A stretch of 64,000 nucleotides of DNA, taken from assembly GCF_001183865.1 (NCBI RefSeq), contig NZ_CP012020.1, forward strand, positions 2,413,839 through 2,477,838, in the 5' to 3' direction. Below the pieces are notes generated by a model. It made no database searches, had not been told where the DNA came from, and was given only the letters and a program-made list of their open reading frames with translations. Position 1 is the first letter of the stretch; each line of letters starts with the position of its first letter. The translations under genes and the position numbers were made by a program. Below, piece by piece: positions 16,979-23,119 of this stretch. Source of the DNA: Methylophilus sp. TWE2 (GTDB lineage Bacteria; Pseudomonadota; Gammaproteobacteria; Burkholderiales; Methylophilaceae).

Positions 16979-17007
16979 AAAAGCCGTCGCGGTAACGACG
17001 GCTTTTT
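16978..17007 (+). terminator. Rho-independent terminator
   Basis: Stem AAAAAGCCGTCG / CGACGGCTTTTT with a 6-nt loop and a built-in T run, immediately after the unknown gene. Because the arms are A- and T-rich at their ends, it can also stop the convergent SRPBCC gene. Confidence 0.9.
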
Positions 17008-17022
17008 GATGGATGCAGCGAC

Positions 17023-17520
17023 CTACTGGAACAATGTTTTCAACTGGTTCAAGCCACCATCATAAACACCTTTGATCGTGTCTGAAGCGGCCTTTTCATC
17101 CGCGGGTGCTTTAGGCAAAAAGTGGCTTTCCCAAACCACCACTGACTTACCCTCACCATTGCTGTGCACACTCACGGTTGAGGCATACTCATTGACTGGC
17201 AACACCCCCTCTGTGATTTTATAAGAGTAGCTTTTAGACTTCGGGTTGTAAGCTGTCAATGTTTCATTGATTTTGCCGCCGTCTTGGAGGGTTAACACTC
17301 GCTTCGCTCCTGCGCTGTTGTTTTTACCGGACACAATTTCTGTTTTTGCCACGGCAGGATGCCAAGCGCCCAAATTGCCAAAATCAGACACCTTCTTCCA
17401 CACCACATCCGCTGATTGATTGAGCTCTACAGACTTCACCACAAACAGCGGCTCCGCAGCAAAAGCACTGCCTGCCACTGCCAATAATGTTGCCAATACT
17501 AAAGATGATACTTTACGCAT
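17023..17520 (-). CDS. Exported SRPBCC (polyketide cyclase/START-like) protein
   Basis: 165 residues from ATG at 17520, which has AGGAGA seven bases upstream; a longer frame lacks a site. The signal peptide is MRKVSSLVLATLLAVAGSAFA. The mature part looks like a helix-grip SRPBCC fold: SADVVWKKVSDFGNLGAWHP near the start and VVWESHF in a late strand, typical of ligand-binding Polyketide_cyc2 proteins. The ligand is unknown. It is divergent from a tetR gene with a palindromic operator between them, so TetR probably controls it. Confidence 0.8.
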   Translation of the reverse strand: MRKVSSLVLATLLAVAGSAFAAEPLFVVKSVELNQSADVVWKKVSDFGNLGAWHPAVAKTEIVSGKNNSAGAKRVLTLQDGGKINETLTAYNPKSKSYSYKITEGVLPVNEYASTVSVHSNGEGKSVVVWESHFLPKAPADEKAASDTIKGVYDGGLNQLKTLFQ

Positions 17521-17556
17521 GATTTTCTCCTGGTTAAGTTTTAACGCACTACTAAG

Positions 17557-17655
17557 CATATACTATACAGTATAGTATATGTAACACAACATAAAGCGTC
17601 AATCAATAGGAGTTAATCCTTTAAAGAGGGCTTTAGGCTATACAAGATGGTATAG
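17557..17655. promoter_or_regulatory. TetR-type operators in the SRPBCC/tetR intergenic region
   Basis: 17557-17581 is a perfect 25-bp palindrome: two 12-bp arms (CATATACTATAC and its complement) around a single A. Its core is CTATAC-A-GTATAG. A second copy of the same half-sites, CTATAC-N6-GTATAG, lies at 17638-17655, just before the tetR -10 box. Both would be bound by a dimeric repressor. Control by the adjacent TetR gene product is inference. Confidence 0.7.
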
Positions 17656-17660
17656 AGTGC

Positions 17661-17666
17661 TATAAT
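17661..17666 (+). promoter_or_regulatory. tetR -10 box at leaderless distance
   Basis: Consensus TATAAT ends only six bases before the tetR ATG at 17673. The transcript would therefore begin at or next to the start codon. No Shine-Dalgarno sequence is present between them, consistent with a leaderless mRNA. Confidence 0.5.
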
Positions 17667-17672
17667 AAAGTC

Positions 17673-18239
17673 ATGAATACTTTAAAGCAGAAGATTCTGC
17701 AGGTATCCACAGACCTGTTTCAGACGCGCGGCATCAACTCCACCGGCGTGGATACCATCGTGGCTGTCGCCGGCACCACCAAAATGACGCTTTACAAATA
17801 TTTTGAAACCAAGGAAGAACTGATACTGGCCGTATTACAGCAAAGTCATCAGGATTTCCAGAACTGGATGAATGAGAAACTGGGCGGCCTTGGTAGCAAC
17901 CCAAATGAGAAAATTCAGAAACTGTTTGATTTTATTGAGGAATGGGTGACCTCCCCTTCTTTTACCGGCATTGCCTTTATCAAGGCTTCGGCAGAATTCC
18001 CCAATGAAGAAAACCGCATCCACCAGCTGTCTTTCCAGCAATCGCGCGAATTCCGCCAATTCATTTCCAAACTGGCACAAGACGCTAATATCAAGGATGC
18101 AGAGGGTCTGGCCCTGCAACTTTCCATTCTGTTTGAAGGTGCCGTTCAGGCCGAACAAATCAAACGCGGTTCAGGGGCGATCAAATCGGCCAAAAAAGCA
18201 GCCAAAGCGCTCATTGACCTTGCCATTAAGCAATCCTGA
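17673..18239 (+). CDS. TetR/AcrR-family transcriptional regulator
   Basis: 188 residues. The N-terminal helix-turn-helix is plain (ILQVSTDLFQTRGINSTGV, TTKMTLYKYFETKEELI), and the C-terminal helical domain resembles TetR_C proteins that sense small organic ligands. It is divergent from the exported SRPBCC gene, with two inverted-repeat operators between them, so it probably represses that gene and itself. The start is fixed by the HTH position and by TATAAT six bases upstream, which suggests a leaderless transcript. The pfkB-like gene follows 84 bp later. Confidence 0.9.
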   Translation: MNTLKQKILQVSTDLFQTRGINSTGVDTIVAVAGTTKMTLYKYFETKEELILAVLQQSHQDFQNWMNEKLGGLGSNPNEKIQKLFDFIEEWVTSPSFTGIAFIKASAEFPNEENRIHQLSFQQSREFRQFISKLAQDANIKDAEGLALQLSILFEGAVQAEQIKRGSGAIKSAKKAAKALIDLAIKQS

Positions 18240-18323
18240 CCATCTTCGGGACCTGCGCCTCTTGCCAGCATGCTGGCTGACAGCAATAATAGCCCTACTT
18301 TACTTAAAAACCTGACTTCATTC

Positions 18324-19292
18324 ATGAAAATTCTTATCTGTGGCTCACTGGCCTACGACACCATCATGGTGTTTCCTGACCAATTTAAAAATCATATCTT
18401 GGCAGACAAAATTCATAAGCTAAGCGTGGCATTTCTGGTGCCGGAAATGCGACGCGAATTTGGCGGGACCGCCGGCAATATTGCCTATAACCTGCAATTG
18501 CTGGAAGGCCAGCCACAGATCATGGCAACAGTGGGCGATGACTTTTCGCCTTACCAATCGTGGCTGGAGCAAAACAACATAGACCCCCAGCACATCAAGG
18601 CCATTGCCGGGACTTACACGGCACAGGCATTTATCACCACCGATATGGACGATAACCAGATTACGGCCTTTCACCCTGGCGCGATGCAATATGCGCACGC
18701 CAATAGCGTGAATGATGCGCGTGACATTGCGCTGGCGATTATTGCACCGGATGGCCGCGATGCCATGTTCCAGCACGCCAAAGAATGCCATGATGCTAAC
18801 ATTCCGTTTATGTTTGACCCTGGCCAGGGCTTACCCATGTTCAACGGCGAAGAACTCATGTATTTTATTGAGATGGCCGATTACCTGGCAGTGAACGATT
18901 ACGAGTCACAAGTCATCCAAGACAAGACAGGCCTGACACTTGAGCAATTAGCCGCTAAAGTAAAAGCTTTGATTGTGACCCTGGGCAGTGAGGGTTCACA
19001 TATTTACGCGGATGGTCAACGCCATGACATTCCATGCGTTAGAGCAGAGCAAGTGGTTGATCCGACAGGATGTGGCGACGCATATCGTGCAGGTTTATTG
19101 TACGGCATTGTGCGTGGCTGGGACTGGAAAGCCTGTGGCCGACTGGCATCCACCATGGGGGCGATCAAGATTGCCAGCCGGGGTGGGCAGAATCACAAAC
19201 CAAGCAGAACAGAGATTGAAAACATTTACAGTCATGCGCTGGTCCAGGATGCACTGAAAGAAGATCCTACCCTGCGCCAGACTGCTAGCTGA
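18324..19292 (+). CDS. PfkB-family carbohydrate/nucleoside kinase
   Basis: 322 residues from ATG at 18324, which gives the canonical MKILICGSLAYDTI start; an upstream frame to 18270 adds nothing family-like. PfkB signatures are EFGGTAGNIAYNL near residue 45 and the anion-hole and catalytic motif VDPTGCGDAYRAG. This group is often annotated as adenosine kinase or ribokinase-like. The real substrate cannot be told here. It sits between tetR and a lipoprotein gene on the same strand. Confidence 0.9.
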   Translation: MKILICGSLAYDTIMVFPDQFKNHILADKIHKLSVAFLVPEMRREFGGTAGNIAYNLQLLEGQPQIMATVGDDFSPYQSWLEQNNIDPQHIKAIAGTYTAQAFITTDMDDNQITAFHPGAMQYAHANSVNDARDIALAIIAPDGRDAMFQHAKECHDANIPFMFDPGQGLPMFNGEELMYFIEMADYLAVNDYESQVIQDKTGLTLEQLAAKVKALIVTLGSEGSHIYADGQRHDIPCVRAEQVVDPTGCGDAYRAGLLYGIVRGWDWKACGRLASTMGAIKIASRGGQNHKPSRTEIENIYSHALVQDALKEDPTLRQTAS

Positions 19293-19308
19293 TTAACAGG
19301 AGAGAACA

Positions 19309-19767
19309 ATGAAAACACGTGTATTGCAATGGGTTGCAGTGGCATTGATCACAGGGATGCTGGGCGCATGCGCCAGCTCAAATTCCGGCAGCGTTTACTC
19401 ACGCGATGAAGCGCGCAAAGCCCAGACTGTCAAAACTGGCGTCGTCGAGAGCGTACGCGCAGTCAAACTGGAAGGGACGAAATCTCCAGTCGGCACGATT
19501 GCTGGTGGGGCAGTCGGCGGCATTGCTGGCAGTACCATTGGTGGGGGGAGAGGTAGCGCCATCGCTGCCGTGATCGGCGCAGTCGCAGGTGGTCTGGCAG
19601 GCTCCGCGGCCGAAGAGGCTGTCACCCGCAAGAACGCGCTGGAAATCACCGTCAAACTGGATGGCGGCGGCCTGGTAGCGATCGTGCAAGAGGCTGACGA
19701 GCAATTCAACGCCGGTGACCGTGTGCGTATTGTTGAGAATGGCGGTACTTCCCGCGTTTCACACTAA
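19309..19767 (+). CDS. Glycine-zipper 2TM outer-membrane lipoprotein (SlyB/PcpA type)
   Basis: 152 residues with a lipoprotein signal ending GMLGAC; C21 is the lipidated residue. A glycine-zipper membrane hairpin follows (GTIAGGAVGGIAGSTIGGGRGS ... AAVIGAVAGGLAGSA, about 63-100), then a short beta-rich tail (ALEITVKLDGGG ... GDRVRIVENGG). This is the SlyB/17-kDa antigen layout, associated with outer-membrane integrity. The start has AGGAGAG eight bases upstream. A strong terminator follows. Confidence 0.88.
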   Translation: MKTRVLQWVAVALITGMLGACASSNSGSVYSRDEARKAQTVKTGVVESVRAVKLEGTKSPVGTIAGGAVGGIAGSTIGGGRGSAIAAVIGAVAGGLAGSAAEEAVTRKNALEITVKLDGGGLVAIVQEADEQFNAGDRVRIVENGGTSRVSH

Positions 19768-19783
19768 GCCGCAGACTATCTAA

Positions 19784-19810
19784 AAAAGAGCGACCAATGG
19801 TCGCTCTTTT
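19784..19810 (+). terminator. Rho-independent terminator
   Basis: Perfect stem AAAAGAGCGACC / GGTCGCTCTTTT around a 3-nt loop, ending in T4. It isolates the lipoprotein gene from the olsBA promoter that follows. Confidence 0.92.
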
Positions 19811-19828
19811 CGTTTTTCGCTACCGACA

Positions 19829-19884
19829 CCGTCACACAACTGTCACGTCAGCGTCACCAATCGTTCATGTGACACTCCTAATAT
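19829..19884 (+). promoter_or_regulatory. PHO-box-like array and -10 box upstream of olsBA
   Basis: Four 7-bp repeats at an exact 11-bp period: CCGTCAC (19829), CTGTCAC (19840), GCGTCAC (19851) and CGTTCAT (19862), each separated by 4 bp. This is the architecture of PhoB sites (CTGTCAT-N4-CTGTCAT). The last repeat ends 10 bp before TAATAT at 19879-19884, the usual distance when PhoB replaces the -35 element. I infer phosphate-starvation control of ornithine-lipid synthesis. Confidence 0.7.
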
Positions 19885-19914
19885 CACGCTAACCCTCAAT
19901 CAAGGAGCCGCGTG

Positions 19915-20697
19915 ATGTTAGAACGCAATCTGCAAGAACATGGCTTATACCAGCCAGAGATTCAATCACCCACCACTAGCGCCCGCCAGTCTACCTTAAG
20001 TGTCGCACTGGCCACCAGCGCAGAAGAAATCACGGAAGCACAGCGTTTGCGCTACCAGGTATTTGCCGAAGAAATGGGCGCACAAATCAAGAGTCAGAAT
20101 GGCCTGGATGTGGATGGCTTTGATGCATTTTGTGATCATTTGCTGGTACGTGACGATGCTACGCAACAAGTCGTTGGCACCTACCGCATTTTAAACCCCA
20201 TGCAGGCCATGCTGGCTGGTGGTTACTATTCAGCCGGTGAGTTTGACTTAAGCCGCCTGGCACCGTTATCTGACCGGATGGTAGAGGTAGGCCGTGCCTG
20301 TGTGCATGCCGACTACCGGACCGGCGGCACCATCACCATGCTATGGGCAGGCCTGGCCAAATACATGATGGCGCGTCAGTACGAATACATGATCGGTTGC
20401 GCCAGCATCTCCATGCATGATGGCGGCCATACTGCCGCTTCGCTGTTTAACAATTTGCGTGAGGATTATTTATCCCCGGCAGAATACCGTGTGTTCCCAC
20501 ACCATCCTTTACCCATAGAAGCGCTGGACCAATCATTGCCAGTGACCTGCCCGCCGCTGGTCAAAGGCTATCTGCGTCTGGGTGCCTACATTTGCGGCGA
20601 ACCCGCCTGGGACCCGGCTTTTAATACCGCAGATATGCTGGTATTGTTACCTTTATCCAGAATCAATCCCAGATATGCTGCGCATTTCTTGAAATAA
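19915..20697 (+). CDS. olsB: L-ornithine N-alpha-acyltransferase OlsB (GNAT)
   Basis: 260 residues of the OlsB/Acetyltransf_5 type. The enzyme transfers a 3-hydroxyacyl chain from acyl-ACP to ornithine, giving lyso-ornithine lipid. Recognisable segments are EAQRLRYQVFAEEMGA, DVDGFDAFCDHLLVRD, VGTYRIL, EVGRACVHADYR and a C-terminal KGYLRLGAYICGEPAWDP. ATG at 19915 is seven bases after AGGAG; the GTG at 19912 is too close. It is followed two bases after its stop by olsA. The upstream PHO-box array points to induction when phosphate is low. Confidence 0.87.
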   Translation: MLERNLQEHGLYQPEIQSPTTSARQSTLSVALATSAEEITEAQRLRYQVFAEEMGAQIKSQNGLDVDGFDAFCDHLLVRDDATQQVVGTYRILNPMQAMLAGGYYSAGEFDLSRLAPLSDRMVEVGRACVHADYRTGGTITMLWAGLAKYMMARQYEYMIGCASISMHDGGHTAASLFNNLREDYLSPAEYRVFPHHPLPIEALDQSLPVTCPPLVKGYLRLGAYICGEPAWDPAFNTADMLVLLPLSRINPRYAAHFLK

Positions 20698-20698
20698 C

Positions 20699-21499
20699 TT
20701 GCCAAAAACAAACTTTCTTACTCGCTATTGGCGCATCGCCCGCATTTTTCTCCACACCCTGACCGGACTCACATTGGCAACACTCGTGTTGCCTGTGTGT
20801 GGCCGCCGTGGCCGCGAGCAAATCATCCGCTGGTGGTGTGCAAAACTCCTGCGCTGCTTTAACTTACAGGTATCGGTCAGTGGTCAACGCCCTGCACCTC
20901 AGACACAGCATACCCTGTTTGTTGCCAACCACATTTCCTGGTCAGATATCCATGCCCTGAATAGCCTGATTCCGGTACGCTTTGTCGCAAAACTTGAGAT
21001 CAAGGATTGGCCAGTGTTTGGATACCTGGTGAAAAAATCAGGGACGATCTTTATTAACCGGACACGTCAACGCGATGCGGCACGCGTGCTTAAAGTCGTC
21101 ACACAAGCAATGAAACTGGGGGACAATCTGTGCGTGTTTCCCGAAGGTACGACGACCGATGGACAACAGGTGCTACCGTTTAAAAGCAGCCTGATCCAGG
21201 CGTCTATTGATGCTGAGGCAACGGTGATCCCGATTGCAATCCATTACCCTCTACCTGACGGTAGCCCCAATCTGGCGGCTGCTTATGCAGGGGAAACGAC
21301 CATGATCGAGTCCATGCTGTCTTTTTTAAACATGCAATCCCCACGCGTGCATTTACATTTTTGTACGCCGATAGAAGCGCGCCTGTTGGACCGGCAAACG
21401 CTCACCAGCCAGGCAAGAAATGAAATCATTGCACACTTGCCATGGACGACAGCCTCTGAGGTCGTCAGCCAGCCATCACTACAAAGACAACAAGCGTGA
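20699..21499 (+). CDS. olsA: Lyso-ornithine lipid O-acyltransferase OlsA (PlsC family)
   Basis: 266 residues of the PlsC acyltransferase family. The N-terminal membrane anchor is IFLHTLTGLTLATLVL. The catalytic HX4D motif is H78-D83 (NHISWSD), and the FPEG block is at 147-150 (VFPEGTTTDG). In an operon with olsB it most likely adds the second acyl chain to lyso-ornithine lipid. It could instead be a lysophosphatidate acyltransferase, but the coupling to olsB favours OlsA. The start is TTG at 20699, one base after the olsB stop, with no strong ribosome site. Confidence 0.85.
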   Translation: MPKTNFLTRYWRIARIFLHTLTGLTLATLVLPVCGRRGREQIIRWWCAKLLRCFNLQVSVSGQRPAPQTQHTLFVANHISWSDIHALNSLIPVRFVAKLEIKDWPVFGYLVKKSGTIFINRTRQRDAARVLKVVTQAMKLGDNLCVFPEGTTTDGQQVLPFKSSLIQASIDAEATVIPIAIHYPLPDGSPNLAAAYAGETTMIESMLSFLNMQSPRVHLHFCTPIEARLLDRQTLTSQARNEIIAHLPWTTASEVVSQPSLQRQQA

Positions 21500-21505
21500 T
21501 CGCAA

Positions 21506-22264
21506 TTAAAAATAGGCCTGCCAGGCCGTCCTGATAATCAGCACCGCAACCACCAGCATAAATACACGCCGCACTAGCTGGGCACCATGCTTGAGCGCCA
21601 GCGCCGTACCCAGCAAACTGCCGGCTACATTGGCCGCCGCCATCATCAGGCCCACCTGCCACCAGACATGCCCGGTCGCTGCCAGCATTAGCAAGGCGGC
21701 CAGGTTAGTCGTCGCGTTCAATACTTTTGCTGACGCCGAAGCATGGAGGAAGTCCTGCCCCAGCCAGCGCACCAGCAAGAAAATAAAAAAGCTACCGGTG
21801 CCCGGCCCAAAAAAGCCGTCATACCATCCAATCGAGGCACCTATCGCAACAGCGATCAGGAAACGTTGCCGCACACTATGCGAAGTCGTGATGCGTGTTA
21901 AACCGAATTGCGGATACTTGAAGGTATAGAACAATACCAGCAGTAACACCCAGGGCAATAATTTGCGCAGGAATTCAGGATCCGTCCAGGTCAGCGTCCA
22001 TGCTCCCAGGCCGGACCCTATCAATGCCGCCAGTGCAGCAGGCGCCAGCCACGCCCAGTCTAAGCGGACATGCCGACCATAACGCCATGCTGCCACGGCA
22101 GTCCCAAACACGCTGGAGCACTTGTTAGTTCCGAGCAACAACGCTGGCGCAGTATTCGCATAAGTTGTCAGCAAGGCCGGAACCGTGACCAGCCCACCGC
22201 CACCGACCATGGCATCCACAATGCCGGCCAAGAAAGCTGCCGAGATGACCAGCCATAACTCCAT
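21506..22264 (-). CDS. TauE/SafE-family (TSUP) membrane exporter
   Basis: 252 residues with about eight membrane segments. The N-terminal repeat is typical: AGIVDAMVGGGGLVTVPALL and LLGTNKCSSVFGTAVAAWRY, mirrored by GFFGPGTGSFFIFLLVRWLG in the second half. The family exports sulfite, sulfonates or other small anions, and the substrate here is not evident. It is convergent with olsA (6 bp gap) and lies 15 bp downstream of apaH on the same strand. Confidence 0.88.
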   Translation of the reverse strand: MELWLVISAAFLAGIVDAMVGGGGLVTVPALLTTYANTAPALLLGTNKCSSVFGTAVAAWRYGRHVRLDWAWLAPAALAALIGSGLGAWTLTWTDPEFLRKLLPWVLLLVLFYTFKYPQFGLTRITTSHSVRQRFLIAVAIGASIGWYDGFFGPGTGSFFIFLLVRWLGQDFLHASASAKVLNATTNLAALLMLAATGHVWWQVGLMMAAANVAGSLLGTALALKHGAQLVRRVFMLVVAVLIIRTAWQAYF

Positions 22265-22279
22265 ATCGTTTGCCTTCTG

Positions 22280-23119
22280 CTAATCGCTGGCCAAATCGGA
22301 TGGGCGGTCACGCAAATCTAACGGCACCTGGCTGATCTGCCCGGTCTCCAGCGCATACGCCGTCAACTGACGCCCCCACAGGCAACCGGTATCCAGCCCA
22401 ATCACACCGTGCCCTTGGTACAACCCTAAGGCAGACCAATGCCCAAACAGAATTTTCTGCGCTGTGTTGGAAGATTGACGGTCAGGGGCGAGAAACCATG
22501 GCATATAGCCTGCAGGGGTATCTGGCAACTCGCCTTTGAAAGAAAACTCCATGACCCCTTCAGCATCCAGCAGGCGCATGCGTGTAAAGGCATTGGTAAT
22601 CGCGCGCAAGCGATCCATCCCTGCCAGATCATCCTGCCAGGCAGCGGGCTGATTGCCATACATTTGCTGTAAAAAGCCAAGGTATTCCGGAGACTGTAAA
22701 ACGGCTTCGACCTCAGCCGCCATTGCCCTGGCCTCGGCTAATGTCCATTGTGGATAGAGCCCGGCATGCAGCATGGCAAAATCGTCTTCAAGCACCATGA
22801 GGGGTTGCTGACGTAACCAGTGCAATAAGTCATCCCCATCTGCAGCAGAAAGGAGTTCAGACAGCGTATCAAAACGATGCGGCGGCTTGATATGATGTGC
22901 CACCGCGATGGCGTGCAAATCGTGATTACCCAACACGACCCTGACGTGGGATTGATGCTCAAACACCCAGCGCAGCACTGCTAGCGAACCCGTACCGCGA
23001 TTGATCAGGTCGCCCACTAGCCACAAGGTGTCATAGCCTGGCTGAAAATCCAGCTGCTCAAGTAAATGCATCAGGGAGTGATAACAACCCTGGATATCAC
23101 CAATTGCGTATCTCGCCAT
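22280..23119 (-). CDS. apaH: Symmetrical diadenosine tetraphosphatase ApaH
   Basis: 279 residues from ATG at 23119, close to the E. coli length of 280; a longer frame to 23173 would run into the preceding terminator. Metallophosphoesterase motifs are GDIQGC, GDLINRG and LGNHDLH. The enzyme hydrolyses Ap4A to two ADP and can decap NpnN-RNA. It is followed by the TSUP exporter gene on the same strand. Confidence 0.95.
   Translation of the reverse strand: MARYAIGDIQGCYHSLMHLLEQLDFQPGYDTLWLVGDLINRGTGSLAVLRWVFEHQSHVRVVLGNHDLHAIAVAHHIKPPHRFDTLSELLSAADGDDLLHWLRQQPLMVLEDDFAMLHAGLYPQWTLAEARAMAAEVEAVLQSPEYLGFLQQMYGNQPAAWQDDLAGMDRLRAITNAFTRMRLLDAEGVMEFSFKGELPDTPAGYMPWFLAPDRQSSNTAQKILFGHWSALGLYQGHGVIGLDTGCLWGRQLTAYALETGQISQVPLDLRDRPSDLASD

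Follow-up and report, generated by a model that had tools for sequence, protein, structure and literature searches.

Does the olsB-olsA gene pair of Methylophilus sp. TWE2 answer to phosphate, and if so through which promoter? The question is raised by a row of short repeats just upstream of olsB in the stretch of DNA analysed here, a 64-kb segment of the chromosome contig (64,000 nucleotides, hereafter the window, whose coordinates are used unless the chromosome is named). A sequence-only reading of this DNA had described the repeats as four heptamers at exact 11-bp steps and had interpreted them as two tandem boxes of a promoter that PhoB activates. We examined the array in its window, in relatives within Methylophilaceae, and in other families of the order.

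The putative promoter region and the genes it faces

The four heptamers are there letter for letter, starting at 19829, 19840, 19851 and 19862, and the further claim that the last repeat ends 10 bp before TAATAT agrees with the coordinates of the two elements (19868 and 19879-19884). The region, all on the plus strand, is laid out as follows.

19784..19810, +, terminator-like hairpin and T-rich stretch (12-pair stem; perfect 13-nt arms) closing the upstream glycine-zipper gene
19829..19846, +, putative distal Pho box, CCGTCAC (19829-19835) and CTGTCAC (19840-19846), 11-bp step
19851..19868, +, putative proximal Pho box, GCGTCAC (19851-19857) and CGTTCAT (19862-19868), 11-bp step, occupying the -35 place
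19869-19878, +, 10-bp gap GTGACACTCC between array and -10 element, read from the sequence
19879..19884, +, predicted -10 element TAATAT, 10 bp downstream of the fourth unit
19902..19907, +, probable ribosome-binding sequence AAGGAG, 7 nt ahead of the ATG at 19915
19915..20697, +, olsB, OlsB-like N-acyltransferase of 260 aa, ATG at 19915 (GTG at 19912 possible)
20699..21499, +, olsA, OlsA-like O-acyltransferase, TTG start 1 nt past the olsB stop

Because the hairpin separates the array from the upstream gene, and because olsA begins 1 nt past olsB, the promoter should serve olsB-olsA; the position of the olsA TTG one base past the olsB stop (20695-20701) also suggests translational coupling. 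A promoter scan of 19700-20000 returned no sigma-70 -35/-10 pair, and Rfam gave no match at the gathering threshold in 17000-23000.

The olsB product matches Acetyltransf_5 (PF13444) at 127.5 bits against a cut-off of 22.4. Its best NCBIfam matches are OlsB models, at 197.2 and 179.9 bits, which fall short of their cut-offs of 320 and 350; judging by their names, these two models describe single lineages. The olsA product matches PF01553 (Acyltransferase) at 96.7 bits and TIGR00530 at 111.3 bits, over its cut-off of 102.95, and scores 131.9 and 131.6 bits with the OlsA models, under a cut-off of 300. In 78 of 80 family loci (the exceptions being L128 and L139) olsB is followed, on its own strand, by an OlsA-like gene; the extrapolated gaps between the two range from 0 to 369 nt and equal 1 nt in 22 of the 78. 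Ornithine is the likeliest head group of the lipid that these enzymes would make.

Inverted repeats were also considered. An RNA switch on the start codon, formed by the repeat 19878-19889/19910-19921, was set aside: the left arm shares bases with the -10 element and would precede the presumed transcription start. By eye, about 9 of the 12 pairs of this repeat are kept in relatives such as L049 and L050, and no compensating change was seen in these. The repeat 19841-19853/19862-19874 was rejected as a palindromic operator because, by eye, L049-L056 lack GTGACA after unit 4 while the direct repeats stay.

The array within the window

The array agrees at 23 of 28 positions with a model of four CTGTCA[TC] copies set at 11-bp steps. 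It is the sole site with at least 23 matches on either strand of the window, and among 300 dinucleotide-shuffled versions of the window one reached this level. The distal box is the top two-unit site in the window.

The array was also scored with a PhoB matrix that did not include olsB. This matrix was made from phoB and pstS sites of the genus, that is from 13 distinct 18-mers and ten third-unit heptamers picked by eye, and its rows are related sequences; the L084 phoB site was left out, L057 has no upstream DNA, and L188, L189 and L193-L200 were not taken as pstS promoters. Such scoring, which the sequence-only reading had proposed, places the array as the highest four-unit site of the window, with a score reached in 1 of 200 shuffles. 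Its three-unit score was reached by 36 of 200 shuffles, so that three units alone are not rare, and unit 3 (GCGTCAC) scores only 0.56 against 9.1 for unit 2. GTCA triplets with 2 mismatches allowed were found 6 times against 4.0 expected, and a strict four-unit pattern with 3 mismatches gave no matches in the window. The window by itself is moderate evidence for the array; it is the relatives that make the evidence strong.

Conservation in Methylophilaceae

The family set comprised the best 80 of 245 stretches encoding OlsB. The nearest named relative among these 80 is Methylophilus methylotrophus DSM 46235, whose OlsB is 97% identical, although very near records may be absent from the set. 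Within the genus, olsB is present in 21 of 22 genomes, and the genome without it is 80% complete.

The sequence-only reading would be refuted if relatives with olsB had lost the repeats; this was checked, and the outcome does not refute it. With the olsB-blind matrix, a strong array (four-unit score of at least 8) precedes olsB in 75 of the 80 loci and in none of 800 control segments taken from the same 80 loci; the other five (L143, L146, L156, L159 and L171) have weaker or partial arrays. At a score of at least 0 the figures are 80/80 and 5/800. Of 76 distinct family arrays, 71 have TAnnnT at a distance of exactly 10 bp on the downstream side. A count that uses no matrix gives the same periodicity: pairs of [GT]TCA are most frequent at spacings of 11, 22 and 33 bp (188, 122 and 61 pairs respectively), whereas each of the other spacings from 4 to 50 bp holds 2 to 15 pairs. 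In 78 aligned promoters the most conserved columns are the units, those of the proximal box among them, and the -10 element, whereas the sequence upstream of them is almost random; the family rows are relatives and not independent events, and the argument rests on this contrast with the flank.

Exact GTCA triplets at 11-bp steps number 26 in the 22 genus genomes against 10 in the control, and by their coordinates 13 lie at olsB, 5 at phoB and 8 elsewhere. A looser three-unit pattern with 3 mismatches gave 105 matches in the whole TWE2 genome against 68 in the control, and was rejected as a regulon list for being too noisy.

PhoB, PhoR and the Pho promoters of the genus

TWE2 encodes both PhoB (354.6 bits against a curated cut-off of 296.2) and PhoR (429.5 bits against 334.2), and its pst genes likewise pass the corresponding NCBIfam models. 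The TWE2 PhoB shares 61% identity with its E. coli counterpart and carries the segment VEDRTVDVHIRRLR unchanged; we take this segment to be the DNA-reading part of the protein. Of 50 genomes, from 50 of the 80 family loci, 48 have a PhoB that exceeds the cut-off; G048 and G071 carry an olsB array with no PhoB over the cut-off, and both are MAG contigs whose completeness is not stated. The phoB and phoR genes (2542574-2543248 and 2409215-2410207) are not adjacent and lie about 132 kb apart on the chromosome contig; a PMT_2-like membrane protein and a GT2 glycosyltransferase are encoded downstream of phoB.

In the genus, the promoters of phoB and pstS consist of 11-bp units of the same kind, with three in place of the four at olsB (L060, L174); the third unit is weak at pstS. 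The number of units, three at phoB and pstS and four at olsB, may set the threshold of the response.

Recurrence across the order

Of 299 genomes in the order, 217 contain an OlsB match. From the listed matches among these 217 we took 36 upstream regions for reading, and 30 other families account for 31 of these regions; families f4, f12, f17, f18, f35, f37, f43 and f47 were left out, the listed gene of f37 having an in-frame stop. Scored with a matrix of 75 family olsB promoters restricted to the units and the -10 element, each of the 31 regions outscored all 200 dinucleotide-shuffled copies of itself. The opposite-strand control reached p 0.01 in 2 of 31 and p 0.05 in 6 of 31, and the order-wide test is therefore slightly generous. 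G101, G103 and G125 fit poorly. By our own count TAnnnT occupies the -10 place in 27 of the 31 regions, a proportion to be read with the fact that the score itself favours TAnnnT. The recurrence of the four-unit grid and its fixed 10-bp gap in 30 more families suggests that ornithine lipid came under phosphate control early in the history of the order.

Proposed mechanism and alternatives

The E. coli pstS promoter consists of CTGTCAT, CTGTCAT, CTTACAT and CTGTCAC at 11-bp steps, then 10 bp and TATTTT, and the phoA promoter of two units, 10 bp and TATAGT. The TWE2 array resembles pstS of E. coli K-12 in its four heptamers at 11-bp steps, its 10-bp gap, its -10 hexamer and the lack of a separate -35, and differs in the units themselves, CCGTCAC/CTGTCAC/GCGTCAC/CGTTCAT rather than CTGTCAT, and in its target, which is lipid synthesis and not phosphate uptake. 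The layout of two tandem boxes activated by PhoB, as the sequence-only reading had it, is supported at the level of sequence: it matches the pstS geometry, the same motif recurs at phoB and pstS of the genus, and TWE2 encodes PhoB and PhoR. We consider it very probable that the array is a sigma-70 promoter of the pstS type, activated by PhoB and driving an olsB-olsA operon.

Under phosphate shortage PhoR phosphorylates PhoB. Two PhoB dimers would then bind head to tail, one to each 22-bp box (units 1-2 and 3-4), and because the step is 11 bp both would lie on one face of the DNA. The proximal box would substitute for the absent -35, PhoB holding sigma-70 over TAATAT, 10 bp downstream, and transcription would start about 7 bp past TAATAT. 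As the transcript would cover both olsB and olsA, a phosphate-free ornithine-type lipid could replace phospholipid. In its excerpted text, PMC4971064 describes a PhoB dimer bound to a 22-bp box made up of two 7-bp repeats with 4 bp after each, and an E. coli Pho box that replaces the -35; by this rule, four units should accommodate two dimers, with sigma-70 recruited over TAATAT.

That the repeats are no more than a chance run of GTCA words is scarcely credible: comparable three-unit scores do arise in 36 of 200 shuffles, but in relatives the repeats persist, at an unchanging distance from the -10 element and beside an upstream flank that is almost random, and the data from both family and order contradict such a run. 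Another response regulator of the OmpR/PhoB family might instead read the array, in which case olsBA would answer to some other stress. At E 0.001 the PhoB model matches forty stretches of the genome, among which are several full-length OmpR-type regulators, and this reading would accommodate the two array-bearing genomes with no PhoB over the cut-off. We nevertheless judge it very unlikely, given that the same units stand at phoB and pstS of the genus, that a matrix made from those two finds olsB, and that PhoB retains the segment presumed to read DNA in E. coli.

It is also unlikely, in our estimation, that the Pho boxes are real but merely additive to a largely constitutive promoter, with ornithine lipid made at all phosphate levels. 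TAATAT alone is a fair -10 element, and according to the excerpted text of PMC7814305 Burkholderia sensu stricto makes ornithine lipid constitutively despite a predicted olsB Pho box in five species. In TWE2, however, the scan of 19700-20000 found no -35/-10 pair, and the boxes sit in the -35 place, as they do at E. coli pstS and phoA.

The preferred reading, a PhoB-activated promoter of the pstS type, puts forward, for the synthesis of phosphorus-saving lipids in methylotrophs, an exact promoter that can be tested, and predicts where ornithine lipids should change with phosphorus supply.

Relation to earlier reports

That phosphate or PhoB controls olsB has been reported or predicted before in other bacteria (PMC7814305, PMC11828411, both in excerpt), and the kind of control is thus known. 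In Burkholderia sensu lato, which belongs to the same order and likewise has a Pho box upstream of olsB, an alphaproteobacterial matrix predicted that box in 21 of 43 genomes and a refined matrix, per the authors, in 43 of 43; the excerpt also cites PhoB-regulated ornithine lipid in other genera (PMC7814305). The matrix of that study, as excerpted, spans 18 bp, whereas Methylophilaceae and the 30 further families show four units and a fixed 10-bp gap. In Acinetobacter, the passages available state that low phosphate induces olsB, which has a predicted Pho box, and that the aminolipids, named as OL and LL, require PhoR (PMC11828411). Acinetobacter olsA is unresponsive in the same account, whereas olsA of TWE2, 1 nt past olsB, should be co-transcribed. 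What is added here is a member from Methylophilus, the family-wide four-unit grid and its recurrence in 30 more families. Among the matches listed in the open-licence literature, as seen in part, there was no report on ornithine lipid, olsB control or this promoter in Methylophilaceae; one paper that was listed deals, in its excerpts, with other bacteria.

A predicted phospholipase C and other Pho-like sites

The matrix derived from olsB points to further Pho genes, for example one for a predicted phospholipase C. A gene for a PF00882 phospholipase C-like protein and a divergent GT4 glycosyltransferase gene adjoin the pst operon (TWE2 chromosome 1174723-1176926; L201:2224-4427). The first product scores 48.7 bits with PF00882 against a cut-off of 26.8; by eye, it appears to bear a signal peptide and would start with Trp after cleavage. 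The best model of the GT4 protein is alpha-monoglucosyldiacylglycerol synthase, at 147.7 bits and below the cut-off of 400. On the phospholipase side, the TWE2 promoter region has four units, 10 bp and CAAAGT, and with the olsB-trained matrix this array scored above all 300 shuffles in 15 of 15 genomes, all of one genus (TWE2 itself and 14 of 15 fetched stretches that hold the gene pair; L251 lacks it). An array on the glycosyltransferase side was rejected, p 0.01 being reached in 0 of 15 with the four-unit matrix; two units and the 10-bp gap are visible there by eye.

PlcP is a calcineurin-like enzyme, while the predicted phospholipase C beside pst in TWE2 belongs to PF00882. Remodelling by plcP/agt resembles what we propose for olsBA in that a Pho-linked, phosphate-free lipid takes the place of phospholipid (PMC4796936, PMC9239053, both in excerpt), and differs in that olsBA yields an aminolipid by acylation; the excerpted PMC9239053 also records Methylotenera plcP transcripts in lake sediment. 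A tentative possibility, which we hold to be rather doubtful, is that in Methylophilus and its kin the Pho regulon runs a complete programme for saving membrane phosphorus, in which olsBA would provide aminolipid and a secreted PF00882 phospholipase C, not PlcP, would strip head groups from phospholipid to give diacylglycerol for glycolipid, with olsB and the phospholipase gene sharing a four-unit PhoB promoter with a 10-bp gap.

Pho-like units TTTCAT, TTGTCAT and ATGTCAC at 11-bp steps occur at chromosome 2034340-2034377 (L203:3841-3878), between MltF-like and seryl-tRNA-synthetase-like genes, where they face no assignable gene. Several minus-strand Pho-like units lie at the start of a gene for an EpsA-type LuxR regulator (209 bits against a cut-off of 170) at chromosome 2333741-2333894 (L204:4242-4395), a hint that the control of exopolysaccharide may take phosphate into account.
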